Shown here one piece after another: positions 1,230-13,264 of a stretch of DNA of 26,338 nucleotides. The position numbers and the translations under genes are program-made. The notes beneath the pieces were generated by a model. That model did not search any database and was not told the origin of the DNA. It saw only the letters and a program-made list of their open reading frames with translations. Source of the stretch: a virus. Where the stretch lies: positions 1 to 26,338 of IMG/VR virus record IMGVR_UViG_3300020202_000201; one strand, 5' to 3'. Each line of letters opens with the position of its first letter. Positions within the stretch are counted from its first letter, which is position 1.

Positions 1230-1529
1230 TCACGAGAAGACGCCGGCCCGAAGCTGACGCAAGAACTGCTCGAGGTCGTCAACGTGGACGTACCAGCACG
1301 CACGAGGCGACTTGCGGACGCGGTCATCGGCGTAGTGGCGCGTTGATATGCGTTGAGCCCTGAGAGCGCCAGCGCGAATCCAGCGGTAGATGGTGGCTTT
1401 ACTACGGCCCAGGTGCCGGCAGAGAGCCGGGATGCCGATCCATTGAGGCCCGAGGGTCACGAATGGAGTGTAACGCGAGGGCTGACGACTGGGCGACGGG
1501 GCGAATGGCGACGGGGAAATTGGCCGCAC
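1230..1529 (-). CDS. Helix-turn-helix DNA-binding protein (excisionase/MerR-like)
   Basis: This 99-residue leftward gene encodes a helix-turn-helix of the small MerR/excisionase type at residues 30-56 (LCRHLGRSKATIYRWIRAG). It is followed by basic residues and the closing WYVHVDDLEQFL motif at 79-90, which is characteristic of that family. The first 25 residues are Pro/Ser-rich and may not be translated. The GTG at 1529 gives the longest form, and a GTG at 1460 would start just before the domain. It likely binds DNA as a repressor, activator or excisionase. Inverted repeats on both sides (1102-1121 and 1622-1638) are candidate binding sites. It is the only recognised transcription-factor-like gene in the window. 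Confidence 0.75.
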   Translation of the reverse strand: MRPISPSPFAPSPSRQPSRYTPFVTLGPQWIGIPALCRHLGRSKATIYRWIRAGALRAQRISTRHYADDRVRKSPRACWYVHVDDLEQFLRQLRAGVFS

Positions 1530-1692: not shown

Positions 1693-2478
1693 TTGTTTCC
1701 AGGTGGTACGCTGCTGGAGGTGGCAAGTCCTGGGGTACCCCGCGCGAATCCAGGTGCAGGGCAGAGCGACGACGCTGCTGCAGCTGAGGCTACGCAGCCT
1801 CACGCAGGCGCAGCGATTGGTGGAGCTCGCGACGTTCAGCCACCGACGCTGACGACGACAGGGGCACCGACGCTCGGAGCGACGGGGACGACGCTGGTCG
1901 AGGGCGAGTTGGTCGACAGCGGCTCGAGGCAGGCAGGGCAGGGGGGGGAGGCCAGGGGGCGCCCCCCCTCGATCGCGTCGTCGGCCCCCCCGCTCCCAAA
2001 ATTCTCCACCCCTCACCTTTCGCCGCACAGCGACACGTCCCTCACGACGACGCTCGCTCCCGGTGCCATTCGCAAACCGACGTTGATGGACCGGCAGATG
2101 GCGTTGGTCCGCAAGGTAGACGAGCGGGTCAAGCGCAAGGCGACGCGGATTGTGGAGGCGGCGTTGGCAGGTGCGGAGCTCAACGACGACGGGACGCCTG
2201 TGGAGCCTCACCGGCACATGGGCGAGCACGGCCGGCCGCTGGATGATCGGGGGAAGGAGTGGAGTGGGGTGCGGTACCGGGTGGCGATGGATGCGAGAAA
2301 GCCGCTCAAGCAGCAGCCGGGGTACTTGGCGATGGCTCAACGGGTGCTGGAGAGTTACAAGCGGGCCGAGGCGGCGAAGGAACCGGCGCCCGAGTTGGGG
2401 GCGGATATCCGGGTGTACCTGACGCAGAACGTGTTCAATTACCCGACGAAGGACGTCAGCGACCGGGGGGGGAAGTGA
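1693..2478 (+). CDS. Possible terminase small subunit (start uncertain)
   Basis: The longest frame gives 261 residues from a TTG at 1693. Residues 1-125 are low-complexity (Ala, Gly, Thr, Pro), while residues 126-261 look like a folded, mostly helical domain. The C-terminus (IRVYLTQNVFNYPTKDVSD) is reminiscent of terminase small subunit tails, and the gene lies upstream of the large subunit, though separated from it by the leftward operon. Later starts (GTG 1720, TTG 1909, ATG 2086) are possible, and a competing frame covers 1703-1852. Homopolymer runs (eight G near 1941, seven C near 1965 and 1985) could shift the frame. The stop overlaps the next GTG. The functional call is weak. Confidence 0.4.
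   Translation: MFPGGTLLEVASPGVPRANPGAGQSDDAAAAEATQPHAGAAIGGARDVQPPTLTTTGAPTLGATGTTLVEGELVDSGSRQAGQGGEARGRPPSIASSAPPLPKFSTPHLSPHSDTSLTTTLAPGAIRKPTLMDRQMALVRKVDERVKRKATRIVEAALAGAELNDDGTPVEPHRHMGEHGRPLDDRGKEWSGVRYRVAMDARKPLKQQPGYLAMAQRVLESYKRAEAAKEPAPELGADIRVYLTQNVFNYPTKDVSDRGGK
1703..1852 (+). CDS. Candidate short frame overlapping the start of the 1693 gene
   Basis: In a different frame from the 1693-2478 gene, GTG 1703 to TGA 1850-1852 encodes 49 residues. It has strongly GC-ending codons (all but about eight of 49 sense codons), more typical of this genome than the competing frame over the same bases. An AGGTGA ribosome-binding-like sequence lies 10 nt upstream, and the intergenic motif at 1670-1680 is just before it. 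The peptide is basic with a likely helix (LLQLRLRSLTQAQRLVELA). If it is real, the longer gene would begin near 1849, overlapping this TGA. It may be spurious. Confidence 0.3.
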   Translation: MVRCWRWQVLGYPARIQVQGRATTLLQLRLRSLTQAQRLVELATFSHRR

Positions 2479-2615
2479 ACCACAAGCGCGGCAAGCCGAA
2501 GTCCAGGCGGTCGGGCTGCCTCCACTGCAAGGGCTGGAAGCACCAGCGCGAGGCCAAGGCGGAGCGGTTCAAGGCATCGGAGCGGCGCAAGCTCCAGGAG
2601 CCGGTGAAGCCATGA
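2475..2615 (+). CDS. Small basic CxxC protein
   Basis: A 46-residue protein whose GTG start overlaps the upstream TGA. A purine-rich tract (eight G then AA at about 2465-2474) lies immediately upstream. It carries a CLHC pair after a Lys/Arg-rich N-terminus, then a Trp-Lys-His step and a long basic helix. It ends in Lys-Pro with an ATGA overlap to the next gene. The composition resembles small phage nucleic-acid-associated proteins with one Cys pair, but no family is assigned. Confidence 0.55.
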   Translation: MNHKRGKPKSRRSGCLHCKGWKHQREAKAERFKASERRKLQEPVKP

Positions 2616-3216: not shown

Positions 3217-3456
3217 TCACGTCTTCGGTGCGGCAACTGCTTGCCGATGGGCCGCCAGTCTACGGCGAGCCTCACGGAGTTGTTTCGCGTTTCTGGCAAC
3301 TATCCCGTCAAGCATGTCCACAGTCCACGCGTTCACGAGCGCCGGGCAGCCGCAGACCCGCAGGCACTTTCCCCGCAGAGACGTCCCGCTCCGGTGTTGA
3401 TGGCTGCTTACGGCGTGTCCGCAGACGCACCTCTCGTACAAATCGTGGATCGTCAC
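3217..3456 (-). CDS. Small putative zinc-binding protein
   Basis: A 79-residue protein whose GTG start overlaps the stop of the upstream leftward gene. The N-terminal half contains CVCGH-x4-H and, about 15 residues later, CLRVCGC, giving two Cys/His clusters spaced like a zinc ribbon or a four-ligand knuckle. The C-terminal half is a basic helix (about residues 45-75). It belongs to the HNH-led operon and could help it bind DNA, but no family is recognised. Confidence 0.55.
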   Translation of the reverse strand: MTIHDLYERCVCGHAVSSHQHRSGTSLRGKCLRVCGCPALVNAWTVDMLDGIVARNAKQLREARRRLAAHRQAVAAPKT

Positions 3457-3905
3457 CCCGTCACCACCAATCCCGCGTCGCCATTCACCGCCGGCTTGTC
3501 TCGGAGGAAGTGACGCAGGAACAGCGGTGCCGGGCAGCGGTACACCTCGTCGAGCGGTATCAGCGCAATCGGGTACTGGCCGTCCTTGGAGACGATATTG
3601 CGGGTCACCTGCGAGCCCATGAGGTGGACGACGTAATCGAGGTGCTCGAACCCGAGCTTGGTTCCCTCGGCGACGACCTCGGAGCCTTCCGGGGGCGTCT
3701 GCCAGCTGTCCTGACCGTCCACGGTGACCAGCACTTCCGTTTCGCCTGCCTCGTTCTTGCGGATCTTCTCGGGCGGCACGATGAGCAGCCCTTGGCGCAG
3801 GTTGAATCCGCCCCGTAACTGGCAGTTGGTGTAATCGGCGCCGATCGGGAACGCCGGGAGCATGGCCCGGATGATCGCTTCGCGGTTGTGTCTAGCTTCG
3901 TTCAC
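3453..3905 (-). CDS. Hypothetical 150-residue protein of the HNH operon
   Basis: The chosen GTG start at 3905 overlaps the end of the HNH gene by 14 nt and has AGAGGAA about 10 nt upstream; a longer frame to 4025 would run deep into the HNH gene. The N-terminal part is helical. The middle reads as a beta-rich domain with a Pro-Pro-Glu-Lys-Ile turn and a strand-like VLVTVDGQDSW, and the C-terminal third contains a likely amphipathic segment with CPAPLFLRHFL. There is no signal peptide or transmembrane span. Its stop overlaps the next start. The product is not recognised. Confidence 0.6.
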   Translation of the reverse strand: MNEARHNREAIIRAMLPAFPIGADYTNCQLRGGFNLRQGLLIVPPEKIRKNEAGETEVLVTVDGQDSWQTPPEGSEVVAEGTKLGFEHLDYVVHLMGSQVTRNIVSKDGQYPIALIPLDEVYRCPAPLFLRHFLRDKPAVNGDAGLVVTG

Positions 3906-4404
3906 GGCTGAGTTTCCTCTTCTGGCGCGCGCGCCGGTTGTATTCCGCGAAAGCCGCGGCATGTTTTTCGCATCTGTAGTTCTCCCCGGTGACGACCTCG
4001 CAACCCTCGTACGCACACAGGCCATATCTGCGTCGCTCCTGTCGGTGTCTGGCCTGCTTGGAGTTGGCCGGTCGTTGCGGCTGCTTGTTCCGCGCCATGC
4101 GCCCCTTGGCCACGGCGTCGCGCATGTTGTCCAACTGCGTTCCCAGGAACAGGTGACTTGGTTTGACGCAAGAGCGGTTGTCGCACTTGTGGCACACGTA
4201 CATGCCCTCTGGGATGGGGCCGACGAATAGCGTCCAGGCTACGCGGTGGGCTAGGCCCGTCTGCTTATAGCCAGCGGATGCCCGTCCGTAGCCATCGGGG
4301 AGGCGGCAGCCTGTCCACTCCCAACACCCGCTCTGCGCCGGTCGCGCCCTTCGCAGAAATCGGATCACCTGCCCCATGTCTTCGCTCTGTTGCGTTTCGT
4401 GCAT
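3892..4404 (-). CDS. HNH endonuclease with C-terminal Cys/His module
   Basis: This 170-residue protein has the layout of the HNH family seen in phage homing endonucleases. It has CWEWTG at 27-32, H53-R-V-A-W, a GPIPEGM turn at 62-68, the zinc-type core CHKC-x4-C-x4-HL at 71-85, and the closing DNM-x5-KGR at 92-102. It should nick or cut DNA in a metal-dependent way. A basic linker (103-126) leads to a second module, C130-x4-C-x9-C-x2-H148, that is shared with the protein at 4457-4630. The ATG at 4404 abuts the divergent repeat region; ATG 4377 is an alternative. It could be a free-standing homing endonuclease or a packaging- or replication-linked nuclease. Confidence 0.85.
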   Translation of the reverse strand: MHETQQSEDMGQVIRFLRRARPAQSGCWEWTGCRLPDGYGRASAGYKQTGLAHRVAWTLFVGPIPEGMYVCHKCDNRSCVKPSHLFLGTQLDNMRDAVAKGRMARNKQPQRPANSKQARHRQERRRYGLCAYEGCEVVTGENYRCEKHAAAFAEYNRRARQKRKLSRERS

Positions 4405-4461
4405 CTGTCACTTTCAACAGTTGCAATTCGTGCAACAGACGTCAAGGCTGTTGAAAGTGAC
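4389..4461. promoter_or_regulatory. Divergent control region with nested repeats
   Basis: Between the leftward HNH gene and the rightward operon lie a perfect 13-bp inverted repeat (GTCACTTTCAACA at 4407-4419, complement at 4449-4461) and an inner hairpin GTTGCA/TGCAAC (4420-4436). There is also a 15-bp direct repeat with 13 matches (4389-4403 and 4420-4434). Both arms of the 13-bp repeat are copies of the intergenic motif also present at 11130. The layout suggests paired divergent promoters or an operator controlling both directions. No clear sigma-70 -10 box was found. Confidence 0.6.
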
Positions 4462-4630
4462 GCGGCAGCTTGTCCATGTGAAAGCGCGCAGGGCAAAGGG
4501 GCTTTGCGCGTTCGAGGGCTGCCCGAAGGTCACCGGCGACCGGTACCGCTGCGACGAGCACGCCAAGGCACACGCGGCGGCGGTGCTTCTGTGGCGTGGC
4601 AAGCGCACGGCGAAGGAGGCAAGCAAGTGA
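4457..4630 (+). CDS. Small protein made of the HNH-associated Cys/His module
   Basis: The GTG at 4457, with AAGG 9 nt upstream, gives 57 residues; GTG 4478 is an alternative, and longer forms would start before the repeat region. The core is C17-x4-C22-x9-C32-x2-H35, with the same ligands, spacing and surrounding residues (GLCAFEGC, VTGDRYRCDEH) as the C-terminus of the divergent HNH endonuclease. It is followed by a basic helix. It probably binds one zinc ion. Possible roles are DNA targeting or competition with the endonuclease. It is the first gene of the rightward terminase-containing operon. Confidence 0.65.
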   Translation: MTRQLVHVKARRAKGLCAFEGCPKVTGDRYRCDEHAKAHAAAVLLWRGKRTAKEASK

Positions 4631-5013
4631 GTCTCGAGATCGGGCAGAAGGTCGTGCGCGTGGGTGGTCCGTCCCGTGACGGACAGCGTGGTCACGTCGT
4701 GCAGATGGACGACGGCGGGCTCGGTGTGCAGCTCGACCGCGCTGCAGAGCGGCTGATCGTGCCGCTGACCGAGCGCAACCGGACCGAGTGGGCGCCGGAT
4801 ACGCGCTCGTCGCTGCAGCCGATGCAGATGGCGCGCGTTTCGTACGGTGCCGATCGCGAACTGCGCATCGCCCGCGGCGAATACGGCGTCAAGGAGTGGA
4901 TGAACCTGGCCGAGCGCGACCGGGTGGCGTGGATGCAGGCTGGTGCGCCGGCATCCGACGCGGACAGGCGGCGCCTTTACCTCGCCATCACGGCCGCGCT
5001 CAAGGGGGAGTGA
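4627..5013 (+). CDS. Hypothetical 128-residue protein with KOW-like N-terminus
   Basis: The GTG at 4627 overlaps the upstream TGA and has an excellent ribosome-binding site, GAAGGAGG, at 4612-4619. Residues 5-45 (KVVRVGG, QRGHVVQMDDGG, then VQLD) look like the small beta-barrel of KOW/SH3-like domains, in which a Gly closes the first turn. The remainder is helical and ends in a Arg/Leu-rich stretch. KOW-like folds often bind RNA or protein, but this is resemblance only. Translation is probably coupled to the preceding gene. Confidence 0.6.
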   Translation: MSLEIGQKVVRVGGPSRDGQRGHVVQMDDGGLGVQLDRAAERLIVPLTERNRTEWAPDTRSSLQPMQMARVSYGADRELRIARGEYGVKEWMNLAERDRVAWMQAGAPASDADRRRLYLAITAALKGE

Positions 5014-5168: not shown

Positions 5169-5650
5169 GGCTGACCGTCCCGTTTCCGGTGTCCGACAAG
5201 CCCATCGAGCAGGGCGGGCTGCTCTATTGGGTCAACAGCGAGGCGCAAAAGCTGTTTCGGCAGATCCGCACGTTTGCCAATGCGCTGGCAGTGGAGCGAA
5301 AGACGGCCGATACGGCTGGTGACGGCGCGTACGTTCGGATCTGGGAGTCGGACGCCATGCCGACTAACGCTTGCTGGGCGGTTGTGGCCAACGTCGTCGG
5401 CGTTACGAAGTCGGGAACGGCGCAGCGTGCGTCTTACGGCATCGCCGGAACGTTCCAGTCGACCAGCAGCACGGTCGCCCAGGTCGATACGGACACGACG
5501 CTGTGGTCGGACGAGTCGACGGCTGCGATCAACGCCCGATTTGGCGTGGATACGGCGTCGCGGACGGTCTACGTCGAGGTTCGTGACGACGGGGCGAGCC
5601 CGATGCGTTTTTCCGCCGTGGTGCAGGTGAATGAGGCGCTGCCGTCGTGA
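5165..5650 (+). CDS. Hypothetical phage protein upstream of terminase
   Basis: The TTG start at 5165 overlaps the previous TGA (TTGA), the rare-start form of the overlap used all along this operon. The 161-residue product has an N-terminal segment with a likely helix (EAQKLFRQIRTFANAL), then a Thr/Ser/Ala-rich beta domain with an AVVANVVGV strand and a final VYVEVRDDG...FSAVVQV pair. The profile resembles a virion surface or fibre-associated beta-sandwich more than an enzyme. Position just before the terminase gives no specific clue. Function is unassigned. Confidence 0.6.
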   Translation: MRLTVPFPVSDKPIEQGGLLYWVNSEAQKLFRQIRTFANALAVERKTADTAGDGAYVRIWESDAMPTNACWAVVANVVGVTKSGTAQRASYGIAGTFQSTSSTVAQVDTDTTLWSDESTAAINARFGVDTASRTVYVEVRDDGASPMRFSAVVQVNEALPS

Positions 5651-7128
5651 CGATTGCAGCGCTCTTGCTGGCGGTCTTCGCCATGCACTATGACCCGGCA
5701 CCGGTCCAGCGCGAATTCCACGCGCTGCAGACCACGGAGGCACTCTTTGGTGGCTCGGCCGGCCCCGGCAAGTCGCTGGCGCTCACCTGCGACCCGTTCG
5801 ACCAGATCATAGTCGAGCACGAGCGCTGCAAAGCCGGCGAGTTGCGCTGGGGCGAGTCGTCGGGGATGGCGATCCACTTCCGGCGCGAGATGCCGCGCCT
5901 GGAAGAGACGATGTTCCGGGCGAAGGTGCTCTACAGCAAGCTCGACTCGGGCTTCAAGTGGGCCGAGCAGATCCACCTGGGCACGTTCTCGAGCGGCTAC
6001 CGCGTCAAGTTCGCCCACCTCAAGGACAACGACGCGTTTCTCAACTACCGCTCTAACCAGTACACCCGCGTCTACTTCGACGAGTTGATCGAATTCGAGG
6101 CCGACCAGTACCACGAACTCGTCGGCCGCTGCCGTTCCACGGATCCGGTGCTGCGGCAGATGCTCAAGGTCCGCGCGGCGTCCAACCCCGCCCCGAACTG
6201 GGTCCGCGAATACTTCGTCGACCCTGCGCCGAGGGGCCGGGTCATCCTGAAAAAGCGGTTCAAGCTACGGGACGGCTCCATCGAGGAGCGCACGCGGCTG
6301 TTTCTGCCGGCGAAGCTCTACGACAACCCCGACAAAGAGTACGTCCGCCAGTACGAAGCGAACCTCATGGACAAGCCGCACCACATCCGCGCGGCGCAAC
6401 TCCATGGCGATTGGTACATCGTCGCGGGCGCGTTCTTCGCCGAGGAGTGGGACGTAGATCGCGTCGTCGTCAAGCCGTTCAAGATTCCCGCCGGCTGGCG
6501 CAAGTTTCGCAGCGGCGACTGGGGCTACAAAGAGGAGTGCGTGATCCTGTGGTGGGCCGTCGACCCTGACGGCAACCTGATTTGCTACCGGGAACTGACG
6601 CTCAACGGCCGCAAGGCCCGTCACCGGTACGACGCGCGCGAGGTCGCCGAGAAGATCAAGGAGATCGAACAGGCGGCCGGCGAGTGGAACAACACCCGCG
6701 GCTGCTCGCGTCTGCAGGGCTGGATGGATACGCAACTCTGGGAGGAGCGCGGCCACCGCGGCCCGACCATGGCGGATGACATGGCGTCCGTCGGCGTCTA
6801 CTGGAACAAGGCGACCAAGGGGCGCAAGCAGGCGGCGCAGCAGTTCATCAAGCGGCTGAACGAGCAGGGCCCCAACGGTGAGCCGGGGGTCATGTTCTTC
6901 GAGACGTGCCGCGGCTGCATCACGACGATTCCCGCTATCGGAACCGACGCGACCGACCCGGAGAAGCCGGCGGACGGCGGGCCCGATCACTGGTGGGCGG
7001 CGGTCAGCTACGCAGTCGCGGCGAACCCGCTGCCCAGCGGAAACGAGCACAGCAACTACCAGGACGATGACGACTACGACGATGCGCCCAGGGCCCAAAA
7101 CTGGGGCCGCTACGGATACGGGAGTTAG
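5647..7128 (+). CDS. terL: Terminase large subunit
   Basis: The 493-residue protein is the packaging motor that pumps DNA into the prohead and cuts it. The N-terminal ATPase shows Walker A GGSAGPGKS at 35-43 and Walker B VYFDE at 142-146, followed by the coupling-type ASNP. The C-terminal nuclease shows acidic residues in SGDWG (D291), WMDT (D361) and GPDHWW (D447), consistent with an RNase H-like fold. The GTG at 5647 overlaps the previous stop; ATG 5683 is an alternative that still keeps both domains. The length is normal for the family. It works with the portal encoded next. Confidence 0.95.
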   Translation: MTIAALLLAVFAMHYDPAPVQREFHALQTTEALFGGSAGPGKSLALTCDPFDQIIVEHERCKAGELRWGESSGMAIHFRREMPRLEETMFRAKVLYSKLDSGFKWAEQIHLGTFSSGYRVKFAHLKDNDAFLNYRSNQYTRVYFDELIEFEADQYHELVGRCRSTDPVLRQMLKVRAASNPAPNWVREYFVDPAPRGRVILKKRFKLRDGSIEERTRLFLPAKLYDNPDKEYVRQYEANLMDKPHHIRAAQLHGDWYIVAGAFFAEEWDVDRVVVKPFKIPAGWRKFRSGDWGYKEECVILWWAVDPDGNLICYRELTLNGRKARHRYDAREVAEKIKEIEQAAGEWNNTRGCSRLQGWMDTQLWEERGHRGPTMADDMASVGVYWNKATKGRKQAAQQFIKRLNEQGPNGEPGVMFFETCRGCITTIPAIGTDATDPEKPADGGPDHWWAAVSYAVAANPLPSGNEHSNYQDDDDYDDAPRAQNWGRYGYGS

Positions 7129-7131
7129 CCC

Positions 7132-9372
7132 ATGGAAAACGACCAGGAAAAGAAACCCGTCTCCGTGGAGATGGATCAGGACGACGACAAGGCAGAGCAG
7201 GCGCTAGCCGACTATCCCGCCGATGCGCCCAACATCGTGCCGTTCTTCCTGCAGCATGGTGACGCGGGAAAGCTGTTCCTGAAGAAGCTGTCGGATCAGT
7301 TCTGGGACGACTACCAGACGGCGTGGGACAGCTGCGAGGACTGGCGGAACCGGTGCGCGGAGAACAACCGGATCATCACCGGGCATCTCAAGGGCAAGAA
7401 CCTGCCCTATGCCGGCTGCGCAAACGCGCACATGCCGATCGCGCTCGAGCGCATGTTGCGGCTGACCAGCAACGTGTTCGTCGAAATCTTCATCGAGCGG
7501 GACACCATCTTCGGCGTCAAGCCCACCGGTCCCGACGACTTCGAAGACGCCGAGGTGCTGACCATCCACGGCAACTGGCAGCTACAGAACGAGCAGACCG
7601 ACTTCATCCGCCAGCAGCACCGGGGCGTCTGGAACTACTTCACCACGGGCTCTGTGTTCGCCCACTCGTCGCGGGACACGGCCAAGGACCGCAACCGCCA
7701 CGACATCATGAACTGCGACGAGATGTTCGTGCCGTACGTCTGGACGACGTACGAGACGGACATGAGCGACGTTCCCTACAAGGGCCGCATCATCCGCAAG
7801 TACCGGCACGAGCTCGAAGCGCTGCGCGACGCTGACGACCCTGGTAAGGCGTGGGCGAACGTCGACGCGGTATTGGCCAAGGACCCGCCGGCCTGGGACA
7901 TCATCAGCGAGACGAAGGCGCGCGAGGAAGGCGCCAAGCACGAAGGCATCATCGCGCCCGACCGGAACAAGCGCGCGCCCTACGTGTTCATCGAGTACCA
8001 CGGCTGGGCGCAGATGCCGGGGGCCAAGTCGATGCGCCCGGTGTGCGCCATCCTCGACGTCAGCACCAAGGAACTGACCAAGCTCTACATCCGTGAAGAG
8101 GACGACTGGCGCGACCGCGCCCGCTACGACTTCCAACTCGAGGAGAAGGCCCGCTACGAAGAGGATCTGCAGGCGTACCAGGCGGCCATGGAGCAGGAGC
8201 AGAGCCTACGTATGGCGCTGCAGAACCCCGAGATCCTGCCCGAAGACAGGATGGAGCTCGAATCCGCGCTGGCCGCCGAGCCGCTGCAGCCGCCCGTGCC
8301 ACCAGCATGGATGGAAGGCGGGAAGACCGAGCCCGACCCGATTCGCAAGGTGCCGCTTGAGTACTTCAGCCACGGCGTCTGCGCGGAAAACCCGTTCGGC
8401 ATGCTGGGGCTGTCGTTCGGGTCCATCCAGGCGGACCTAAACCGCCTGGCCAACGAAGCACTCAACCGCTTCTACGACGCCGCGACGCTGGGCAACGTCT
8501 GGTCGGTGATCGCGCCCGAGTCGTTGGACTTCGGGTCCACGCAGCTCGGCATCGGACCCGGCAAGGTCATCCGCGTAAAGGGGATGACGGGCGAGCAGAT
8601 AAAGAACAGCATCATCGAGCTCAAGCCAGCCCCCGCGAACCCGCAGTTGCTCGACATCGTCGGTATGGCCGAGGAGGCGGCTGACAGTTCAATCGCGGCG
8701 CCGTCCGTGCTCTCGGGCGAGCCGGGCAAGAGCGGCGAGACGTTCCGCGGGCTGGCGACGCGCGTGGAGAAGGCGACACGGCAACTGAGCGCGGCCGGGA
8801 TCAAGTACCTCGACTTCCTGACCAACATCCTGCGCAACAACGCGCGACTTAACTCGTACTTCCTGCCCGATGAGCAGGTGCTGCAGGTGCTCGACCACGT
8901 CGACCTGCCGGATTTCCTGCTCGGCGGCAAGCCACGGCCGACCACGCGGGGCATGCGTGAGATCCACATCGGCCGCGACATGTACCGTCGCAATTACGAC
9001 GTGACGTTCACCGCCGACGTGCGGTTCGCCTCACAGGCGCAGCGGATCAGCGAGGCTGACGAACTGGTGGCGATGGCCGAGCACCCGGCGCTGCAGGGCA
9101 ACGCGGCCTTTGCGTACCAGGCGATTGCCAAGTCGCTGCGGGCGCGCGGGCAGCACGACATGATCCCGACCCTCGGCCCGCCGCCGCCCATGCCAGAGGT
9201 GCCGATGGGTATGGCACCGCCGATGGACGTGGCAATGGGCGGGCAGGCGATGGGACCGCCCGATACGACGCTGCCCGGCGGCCCTCCAGGCGAGCCACCA
9301 CCTGAGGACGTGCCGACGCCAGAGGCAGCGCCGGGGCCGATCCAGGGGCCGCAGCCGGGGGCAGAGGCGTGA
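7132..9372 (+). CDS. Portal protein (P22-like, large)
   Basis: At 746 residues this matches the large portals of P22-type podoviruses, which form the dodecameric head vertex where packaging and ejection take place. Supporting traits are its place directly after the terminase gene, the PYAGCANAHMPI motif near residue 90, long acidic and aromatic helical segments, and a conserved-looking stretch around SGEPGKSGETFRG (residues 526-538) in the region expected for the clip/stem. The C-terminus (about 680-746) is Pro/Gly/Met-rich and probably disordered. The start ATG 7132 has GGGAG upstream. Its stop overlaps the next start. Confidence 0.88.
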   Translation: MENDQEKKPVSVEMDQDDDKAEQALADYPADAPNIVPFFLQHGDAGKLFLKKLSDQFWDDYQTAWDSCEDWRNRCAENNRIITGHLKGKNLPYAGCANAHMPIALERMLRLTSNVFVEIFIERDTIFGVKPTGPDDFEDAEVLTIHGNWQLQNEQTDFIRQQHRGVWNYFTTGSVFAHSSRDTAKDRNRHDIMNCDEMFVPYVWTTYETDMSDVPYKGRIIRKYRHELEALRDADDPGKAWANVDAVLAKDPPAWDIISETKAREEGAKHEGIIAPDRNKRAPYVFIEYHGWAQMPGAKSMRPVCAILDVSTKELTKLYIREEDDWRDRARYDFQLEEKARYEEDLQAYQAAMEQEQSLRMALQNPEILPEDRMELESALAAEPLQPPVPPAWMEGGKTEPDPIRKVPLEYFSHGVCAENPFGMLGLSFGSIQADLNRLANEALNRFYDAATLGNVWSVIAPESLDFGSTQLGIGPGKVIRVKGMTGEQIKNSIIELKPAPANPQLLDIVGMAEEAADSSIAAPSVLSGEPGKSGETFRGLATRVEKATRQLSAAGIKYLDFLTNILRNNARLNSYFLPDEQVLQVLDHVDLPDFLLGGKPRPTTRGMREIHIGRDMYRRNYDVTFTADVRFASQAQRISEADELVAMAEHPALQGNAAFAYQAIAKSLRARGQHDMIPTLGPPPPMPEVPMGMAPPMDVAMGGQAMGPPDTTLPGGPPGEPPPEDVPTPEAAPGPIQGPQPGAEA

Positions 9373-12364: not shown

Positions 12365-13264
12365 ATGCAGACCACTTCAGTTGCATTCGCGACCCTCAAG
12401 GCGACCCTCGAGGAGATCGTTACGGACGACACGGACAACGTCGAAAAGAACGTCGTCTACAAGCAGTACATGAAGGTCGAGGGGATGAAGGACAACTACG
12501 TCGACGACCTGTCGAACGGTGGTCCTGGCCTCGCGACGGAGAAGGCCGAAGGTCAGGCGCTCGACGTCCTCGACCTGAACAACGGGTACCAGACTCGCTA
12601 TCTGGCCCGGAAGTTCGGCCTGATCATGCAGATCACCGAGGAGCTGGACGAGGACGGCAAGTACAACGACGAGTACGTCGATGCTGCTCGCCGGATGAAG
12701 CGCGCGGTCTTCAAGACCATGGAGGTCGAGTGCGCGCAGATTCTGAACCGCGTCCACAATGCGTCGTACGTCGGCGGTGACGGTCTGTGCCTGGGCAACT
12801 CGGCGCACACCATCCCCGGCGGCGGGACGTTCAGCAACACGCTGTCGACGGCGTTTTCGCCCTCGCGCGCGGCGCTGATCGTGGTTCGCCAGAACCTCAT
12901 GACTCTGCCCGGCTGGGACGGCGTCACCGAGGGCTACATGCCCACGGCGGTCGTTCACCCGCCGGCGCAGTGGGGCGCCTGGGCGGGCATCCTGCAGTCG
13001 GAGAAGGTGCCCGAGAGCGGCAACAACGAGACGAACGTCGCCAAGTCGCTCAACCTCAAGCAGGTGCCGGTGCCGTACTGGACGGCGAGCACCACCAACT
13101 GGCTGGTGCTGACCGATGCGGCCCGCCTGAAGCTGAAGGTGCGCCGCAAGCCCAAGGCCCGTACGTGGTACGACGAGGCCACGGAGGTCATCAACTACGG
13201 CATCAGCGCTCGCTGGGCGCGTGGTTGGTCGGATCCGCGGGCGGTCTACACGAGCAACGCGTAG
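12365..13264 (+). CDS. Major capsid protein
   Basis: A 299-residue protein placed after the scaffold, as expected for a coat protein of the HK97-type fold. Features consistent with that fold are an N-terminal helical arm, LNNGYQTRYLARKFG and the following helix (about 75-115), a Gly-rich loop before PSRAALIVVRQNLM (the spine-helix region), PTAVVHPPAQWGAWAGIL, and a C-terminal beta segment with KARTWYDEATEVINYGISARWARGW cut by turns. No signal or processing site is evident. It is the best candidate for the main virion shell component, although identification depends on order and composition. Confidence 0.78.
   Translation: MQTTSVAFATLKATLEEIVTDDTDNVEKNVVYKQYMKVEGMKDNYVDDLSNGGPGLATEKAEGQALDVLDLNNGYQTRYLARKFGLIMQITEELDEDGKYNDEYVDAARRMKRAVFKTMEVECAQILNRVHNASYVGGDGLCLGNSAHTIPGGGTFSNTLSTAFSPSRAALIVVRQNLMTLPGWDGVTEGYMPTAVVHPPAQWGAWAGILQSEKVPESGNNETNVAKSLNLKQVPVPYWTASTTNWLVLTDAARLKLKVRRKPKARTWYDEATEVINYGISARWARGWSDPRAVYTSNA

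Follow-up and report, generated by a model that had tools for sequence, protein, structure and literature searches.

A leftward HNH endonuclease gene upstream of the terminase operon of a tailed phage encodes, at its C-terminus, a Cys/His module that is homologous to ZF57, the free 57-residue protein encoded rightward on the other side of a short divergent control region. The sequence analysed here (the window) is the full IMG/VR record IMGVR_UViG_3300020202_000201, 26,338 bases in length. Our preferred reading, to which we would assign a probability of roughly 60%, is that the nuclease is a free-standing HNH_3 homing endonuclease that inserted behind the divergent control region and was re-armed with a targeting module of the ZF57 family. 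The features on which the argument rests are collected in Table 1.

Table 1. Features of the terminase-upstream locus and its surroundings, with positions in the window.
Feature	Position	Strand	Basis or remark
150-aa leftward gene, unknown function	3453..3905	-	52% identity to L051 protein; synteny
HNH_3 homing-type endonuclease, 170 aa, C-terminal ZF57-type module	3892..4404	-	Pfam HNH_3 4e-17; PHROG endonuclease families; fold match
ZF57-homologous part of the HNH protein, residues 122-170	3895..4041	-	HMM 3.3e-16; alignments; Cys/His motif 3961-4017
HNH_3 catalytic core, residues 51-95	4120..4254	-	Pfam coordinates; catalytic-type residues present: HR, CHKCDN..CVKPSHL
Left arm of inverted repeat, CTGTTGAAAGTGAC	4407..4420	-	Ends 2 bp before HNH ATG
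Inner dyad GTTGCA-ATTCG-TGCAAC between arms	4420..4436	.	Read from sequence; possible operator (putative function)
Right arm of inverted repeat	4448..4461	+	Overlaps ZF57 GTG start
ZF57, 57 aa, heads rightward terminase operon	4457..4630	+	GTG start at 4457; syntenic orthologues in L051, L067, L073, L074; Cys/His motif 4505-4561
128-aa gene 3' of ZF57, conserved terminase-operon member, synteny marker	4627..5013	+	54% identity to L051; matches in L066, L067, L070, L073
Terminase large subunit (TerL)	5647..7128	+	Pfam Terminase_6N 2.6e-07; phrog_979; anchors conserved neighbourhood
Gene called portal by position and size	7132-9372		No convincing family match
Major-capsid-like gene	12365-13264		Named by position

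Upstream of the terminase the window has a rightward operon headed by ZF57 and a leftward set in which the HNH gene comes first and the 150-aa gene second. Related records were collected by a terminase-alignment search, with L073 added through the 150-aa protein and L074 through the motif pattern; the L074 terminase is a distant relative (profile 3e-37). The relatives are few and nearly all are metagenomic fragments, and the fusion is carried by the window lineage only. Two further records, L003 and L052 (IMG/VR 3300021062_000118 and 3300021061_000125), match the window at 100% identity over 9.6 and 5.4 kb and, being identical in sequence, are not independent evidence. Three other small proteins are encoded nearby. 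The leftward set includes a second Cys/His-rich protein of 79 aa (3217-3456, minus strand; CVCGH..SSH..GKCLRVCGC) with no convincing family match. A basic 45-aa protein with a CLHC motif (2478-2615, plus strand), for which Pfam gave no match, is encoded upstream. The third is a small HTH_17 excisionase-like protein (1230-1529, minus strand), with similar proteins in L051 and L066 and a weaker one in L074.

The open reading frames and their translations contain both of the motifs described in the sequence-only reading, C-x4-C-x9-C-x2-H, as C130-x4-C135-x9-C145-x2-H148 at the C-terminus of the HNH protein and as C17-x4-C22-x9-C32-x2-H35 in ZF57. That reading had proposed a shared core of 20 residues; the similarity spans about 50. 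In a tblastn search of ZF57 against its own record, residues 3-50 aligned with the HNH C-terminus (50% identity, E 2.8e-12). A hidden Markov model built from the five free ZF57 proteins, without the HNH tail, scored that tail at 58 bits (3.3e-16) among 10,412 translated frames, and the next frame from outside the family, an N-terminal module in an HNH protein of an Arthrobacter phage, reached 21 bits (1.2e-4). This score gap excludes chance and shows that the two segments share more than the same motif: profile comparison places them in one family, not in two unrelated ones, and the C-terminus of the HNH protein is homologous to ZF57. The shared motif might instead reflect a widespread phage fashion for zinc fingers with no special link between neighbours, given that C-x4-C-x8/9-C-x2-H modules occur N-terminally in many HNH proteins. 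Such modules, however, score 1e-4 or worse with the ZF57 profile against 3e-16 for the tail of the neighbour, and in viral contigs the strict motif pattern matches this phage group only; we consider this explanation very improbable.

Surveying how often the module occurs alone or fused gives an answer that is specific to the family. With the strict pattern, the matches in viral contigs comprise free proteins and a single C-terminal fusion. Relaxing the pattern adds six proteins, all of which carry the module N-terminal to another type of HNH domain. Among named phage records, neither the HNH tail nor the L051 protein has a match at E up to 1; the window ZF57 has five weak matches (E 0.04-0.8), and all three of those that were translated carry the module N-terminally. 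The best PHROG match of both modules is phrog_144, whose profile matches the module only (4e-4 and 1.3e-3); its HNH proteins have an N-terminal finger, and the window module is either C-terminal or alone. As a broader class, short Cys/His modules on HNH proteins are common.

Five genomes (the window, L051, L067, L073 and L074) encode free ZF57, each time roughly 1 kb upstream of TerL. In each it heads the terminase operon as a protein of 57-65 aa with the signature RR..GLCA..GC.....G..YRC..H, and in L051, L067 and L073 it is followed by the same small genes. It was not found in records L066, L069, L070 and L053, some of which are fragments. Conservation of the small gene in relatives, on which the sequence-only reading had staked its proposal, thus holds across five genomes. 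The four Cys/Cys/Cys/His ligands are invariant in 6/6 sequences, and the predicted model puts the second pair where a helix begins. Between the window and L051, dN of 0.20 against dS of 1.31 points to purifying selection on ZF57, an estimate that is short, covering the first 38 codons. No match among solved structures was returned by a fold search with the ZF57 model. There is a weak Pfam match to antitermination protein Q (0.096), with which only the location of ZF57 as first gene of the terminase operon agrees. No cellular homologues were found; pattern matches in genome contigs fell outside the family both by inspection and by profile score. ZF57 is probably a zinc-finger-like, DNA-binding protein, with the conserved ligands as the presumed zinc site. 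The slot facing it differs between genomes: L051 and L073 have the 150-aa gene there, L067 has a gene for a macro-domain protein and the window has the HNH gene, so that it seems to be occupied by variable accessory genes. The macro-domain protein of L067 (4496-5050, minus strand; Pfam 9.5e-08) is divergent to ZF57.

The HNH_3 domain of the facing protein scores 61.9 bits against a curated Pfam cut-off of 24.8, and the predicted model of the protein has a mean pLDDT of 90.9. A fold search with this model ranks I-HmuI first (probability 1.00, E 1.7e-3) and I-PpoI at ranks 2-5; the TM-scores are low (~0.3) because only about 83 columns align. Against the sequences of solved structures the protein has no match at E up to 1. 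Identity as a homing nuclease, which these comparisons suggest, would imply site-specific cleavage and transfer of its own gene. HNH relatives in viral contigs keep the core and carry helix-turn-helix-like tails, several with weak Pfam HTH matches, and in many of them a Cys/His module is present at the N-terminus instead. A ZF57-type tail was seen in none of the HNH relatives found. The window nuclease therefore looks tail-replaced: relative to these proteins, its tail is swapped for a module of the ZF57 family. Composition was considered as a sign of foreign origin and dropped, as the GC3 of the HNH gene (0.75) is below that of TerL and the capsid gene (0.89-0.90) but lies inside the range of several window genes (0.70-0.79).

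The distribution of the HNH gene is sporadic, as for an HNH_3 homing gene. The HNH_3 profile has no match in any of the seven relatives, most of which are fragments, and in searches with the HNH protein L051 yields only its ZF57 orthologue and L053 yields nothing. Two HNH-free versions of the site are available, in L051 and L073, where the 150-aa gene faces ZF57 directly across a spacer of ~55-85 bp; in the window, a similar distance of 52 bp separates the HNH gene from ZF57. The simplest reading is that, in the window lineage, the HNH gene was inserted behind the control region and ahead of the 150-aa gene. Placed there, it would rely on leftward transcription; its stop and the start of the following leftward gene overlap by 14 bp. 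An apparent HNH remnant in the L051 spacer (YNR-like codons) proved no better than shuffles (22/60). The reverse history, in which the fusion is ancestral at the locus and L051 and L073 lost the nuclease and kept free ZF57, draws on the small sample, one presence against two absences at a directly comparable site; the absence of the gene from 7/7 relatives and the shuffle-level score of the supposed remnant make it improbable.

The same distribution bears on a packaging function, in which the HNH protein would be an accessory nuclease like HK97 gp74, aiding the terminase cut near the start site with ZF57 as its partner. The position of ZF57 close to TerL in the five genomes is in keeping with this idea, as are the report that the HK97 HNH nuclease acts with terminase (PMC10448857) and the phrog_144 similarity of both modules. 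A gp74-type nuclease would be conserved beside the terminase across relatives, yet this one is missing in seven of them and its gene points away from the terminase operon. Moreover, its core is of the homing HNH_3 type, whereas the phrog_144-like protein that was tested has a PF01844-type HNH. A role in packaging is therefore quite unlikely in our judgement.

The divergent repeat region noticed between the two genes is a perfect 14-bp inverted repeat; no other perfect inverted repeat with arms of at least 11 bp and a loop of up to 60 is present in the window. The folded strand of the region gives z = -4.0. L073 has a different perfect 12-bp inverted repeat at the same position beside the ZF57 start, likewise unique in its record by these limits, and no HNH gene. 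The repeat therefore belongs to the divergent region itself and did not arise through the insertion; it resembles an operator that varies in sequence from phage to phage. Our guess is that ZF57 binds these repeats and may repress through them. A promoter scan of the region found no sigma-70-type promoter, and no RNA families were found. Repeats of other sequence were also seen elsewhere: L077 (905-968) has a perfect 12-bp inverted repeat and a further copy (GTGTGAGAAGT) at the ZF57 start, in the same place as in the window, and in L051 the spacer facing ZF57 contains short direct repeats instead (2213-2278; ATTCGGTTNTATTT, TGACATTCGG).

The perfect repeat also enters into the question of where the tail came from. 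Identical 14-bp sequences precede two genes with homologous modules, which could be explained if the HNH tail arose when the resident ZF57 and the sequence upstream of it were duplicated in inverted orientation, an event that also created the repeat. But the modules share only 55% of their nucleotides while the repeat is perfect, and the L073 repeat, present without an HNH gene, indicates that no duplication is needed to make one. At the protein level, moreover, the tail shares 54-55% identity with the L051 protein versus 50% with the resident ZF57; at the nucleotide level, over 38 codons, it is equally close (55%) to the window ZF57 and to the L051 copy. A tree of 14 short module sequences has little resolution within the ZF57 group and does not pair the two window copies. 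The divergence of the tail and the tree make a recent copy of the resident gene unlikely, and we reject a recent inverted duplication on the divergence together with the independent L073 repeat; we give inverted duplication as an explanation of both tail and repeat a low probability. The sequences would be better explained by a diverged ZF57 gene carried by a related phage as the source of the tail, or by an old duplication. Duplication and shuffling by a mobile endonuclease had been offered as alternatives in the sequence-only reading. Shuffling is well supported by the seven relatives without the HNH gene, the two HNH-free sites and the replacement of an HTH-like tail by one of the ZF57 family; a simple recent duplication of the resident gene is not supported, with 55% nucleotide identity and a tail as close or closer to the ZF57 proteins of other phages.

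A mechanism consistent with the homing endonuclease reading can be outlined. In this phage group, ZF57 heads the rightward terminase operon and faces a leftward gene across the short divergent control region. In the window phage the HNH gene would have inserted between this region and the 150-aa gene, and a ZF57-family module, most likely acquired by recombination with a diverged ZF57 gene, would have taken the place of its HTH-like C-terminal DNA-binding domain. This module, presumably zinc-bound, would steer the nuclease to DNA recognised by ZF57-type fingers, a plausible target being the ZF57 control region or its flanks in phages without the insert. Insert-free DNA would be cut and then repaired from the carrier. 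Competition of the free and fused modules for one site, which had been raised from the outset, would be plausible by analogy. A more specific proposal goes further: the targeting domain would come from the same family as the regulator encoded where the nuclease gene inserted, both the free protein and the nuclease would recognise the same control region, and the regulator would shield carriers while phages with diverged operators were left open to cutting. We offer this extension tentatively and think it rather unlikely.

How homing endonucleases gain new target specificity is an open evolutionary question. A targeting domain that matches the protein of the adjacent gene, together with nuclease-free relatives, offers a compact case from nature for which joint tests of target, regulator and nuclease could be made. 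In addition, an unannotated family of small genes upstream of phage terminases gains a likely biochemical class, that of zinc fingers.

The individual elements can be compared with known systems. Three accounts (PMC2988022, PMC8263062, PMC10448857) provide precedents for HNH-3 nucleases that carry zinc fingers at the C-terminus, for hot spots of nucleases upstream of terminases, for zinc-finger domains that occur both in a free repressor and in nucleases, for the swapping of DNA-binding domains, and for a chimeric nuclease that takes its aim from a domain shared with another DNA-binding protein. Closest in architecture are the T4 Mob class and the ICP1 HNH-3 nuclease with a C-terminal zinc finger, which share with the window gene the HNH_3 core, the C-terminal finger and a free-standing intergenic position near an essential operon; the portions of the sources at hand do not describe mob genes with a finger from the family of a neighbour, as in the window (PMC2988022, PMC10448857). 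CapR and the T5orf172 homing endonucleases likewise use one zinc-finger DNA-binding domain in a free repressor and fused to a nuclease, but the nuclease domain is T5orf172, the finger is CxxC..CxC, and CapR is satellite-encoded and not beside the nuclease (PMC10448857). Odn (Gp88) and PLE RepA combine a homing-type nuclease domain with a domain shared with another DNA-binding protein that supplies the target; they differ in using a RepA_N domain against a satellite target, in having been tested experimentally and in being encoded by genes that are not adjacent (PMC8263062). Proteins of the phrog_144 type also join a C-x4-C-x8/9-C-x2-H module to an HNH nuclease, but theirs is N-terminal, the HNH subfamily is PF01844 and the profile similarity is weak only. 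Finally, I-TevI, which represses its own expression at an operator similar to its homing site, offers a model for the use of one DNA-binding domain in cutting as well as in repression; there a single protein carries both roles, which in the window would be split between two (PMC2988022). Each element thus has a precedent, and what is distinctive is the presence of free and fused forms side by side, with nuclease-free relatives in existence. The locus looks like the result of a type of event already known, here set out with unusual clarity.
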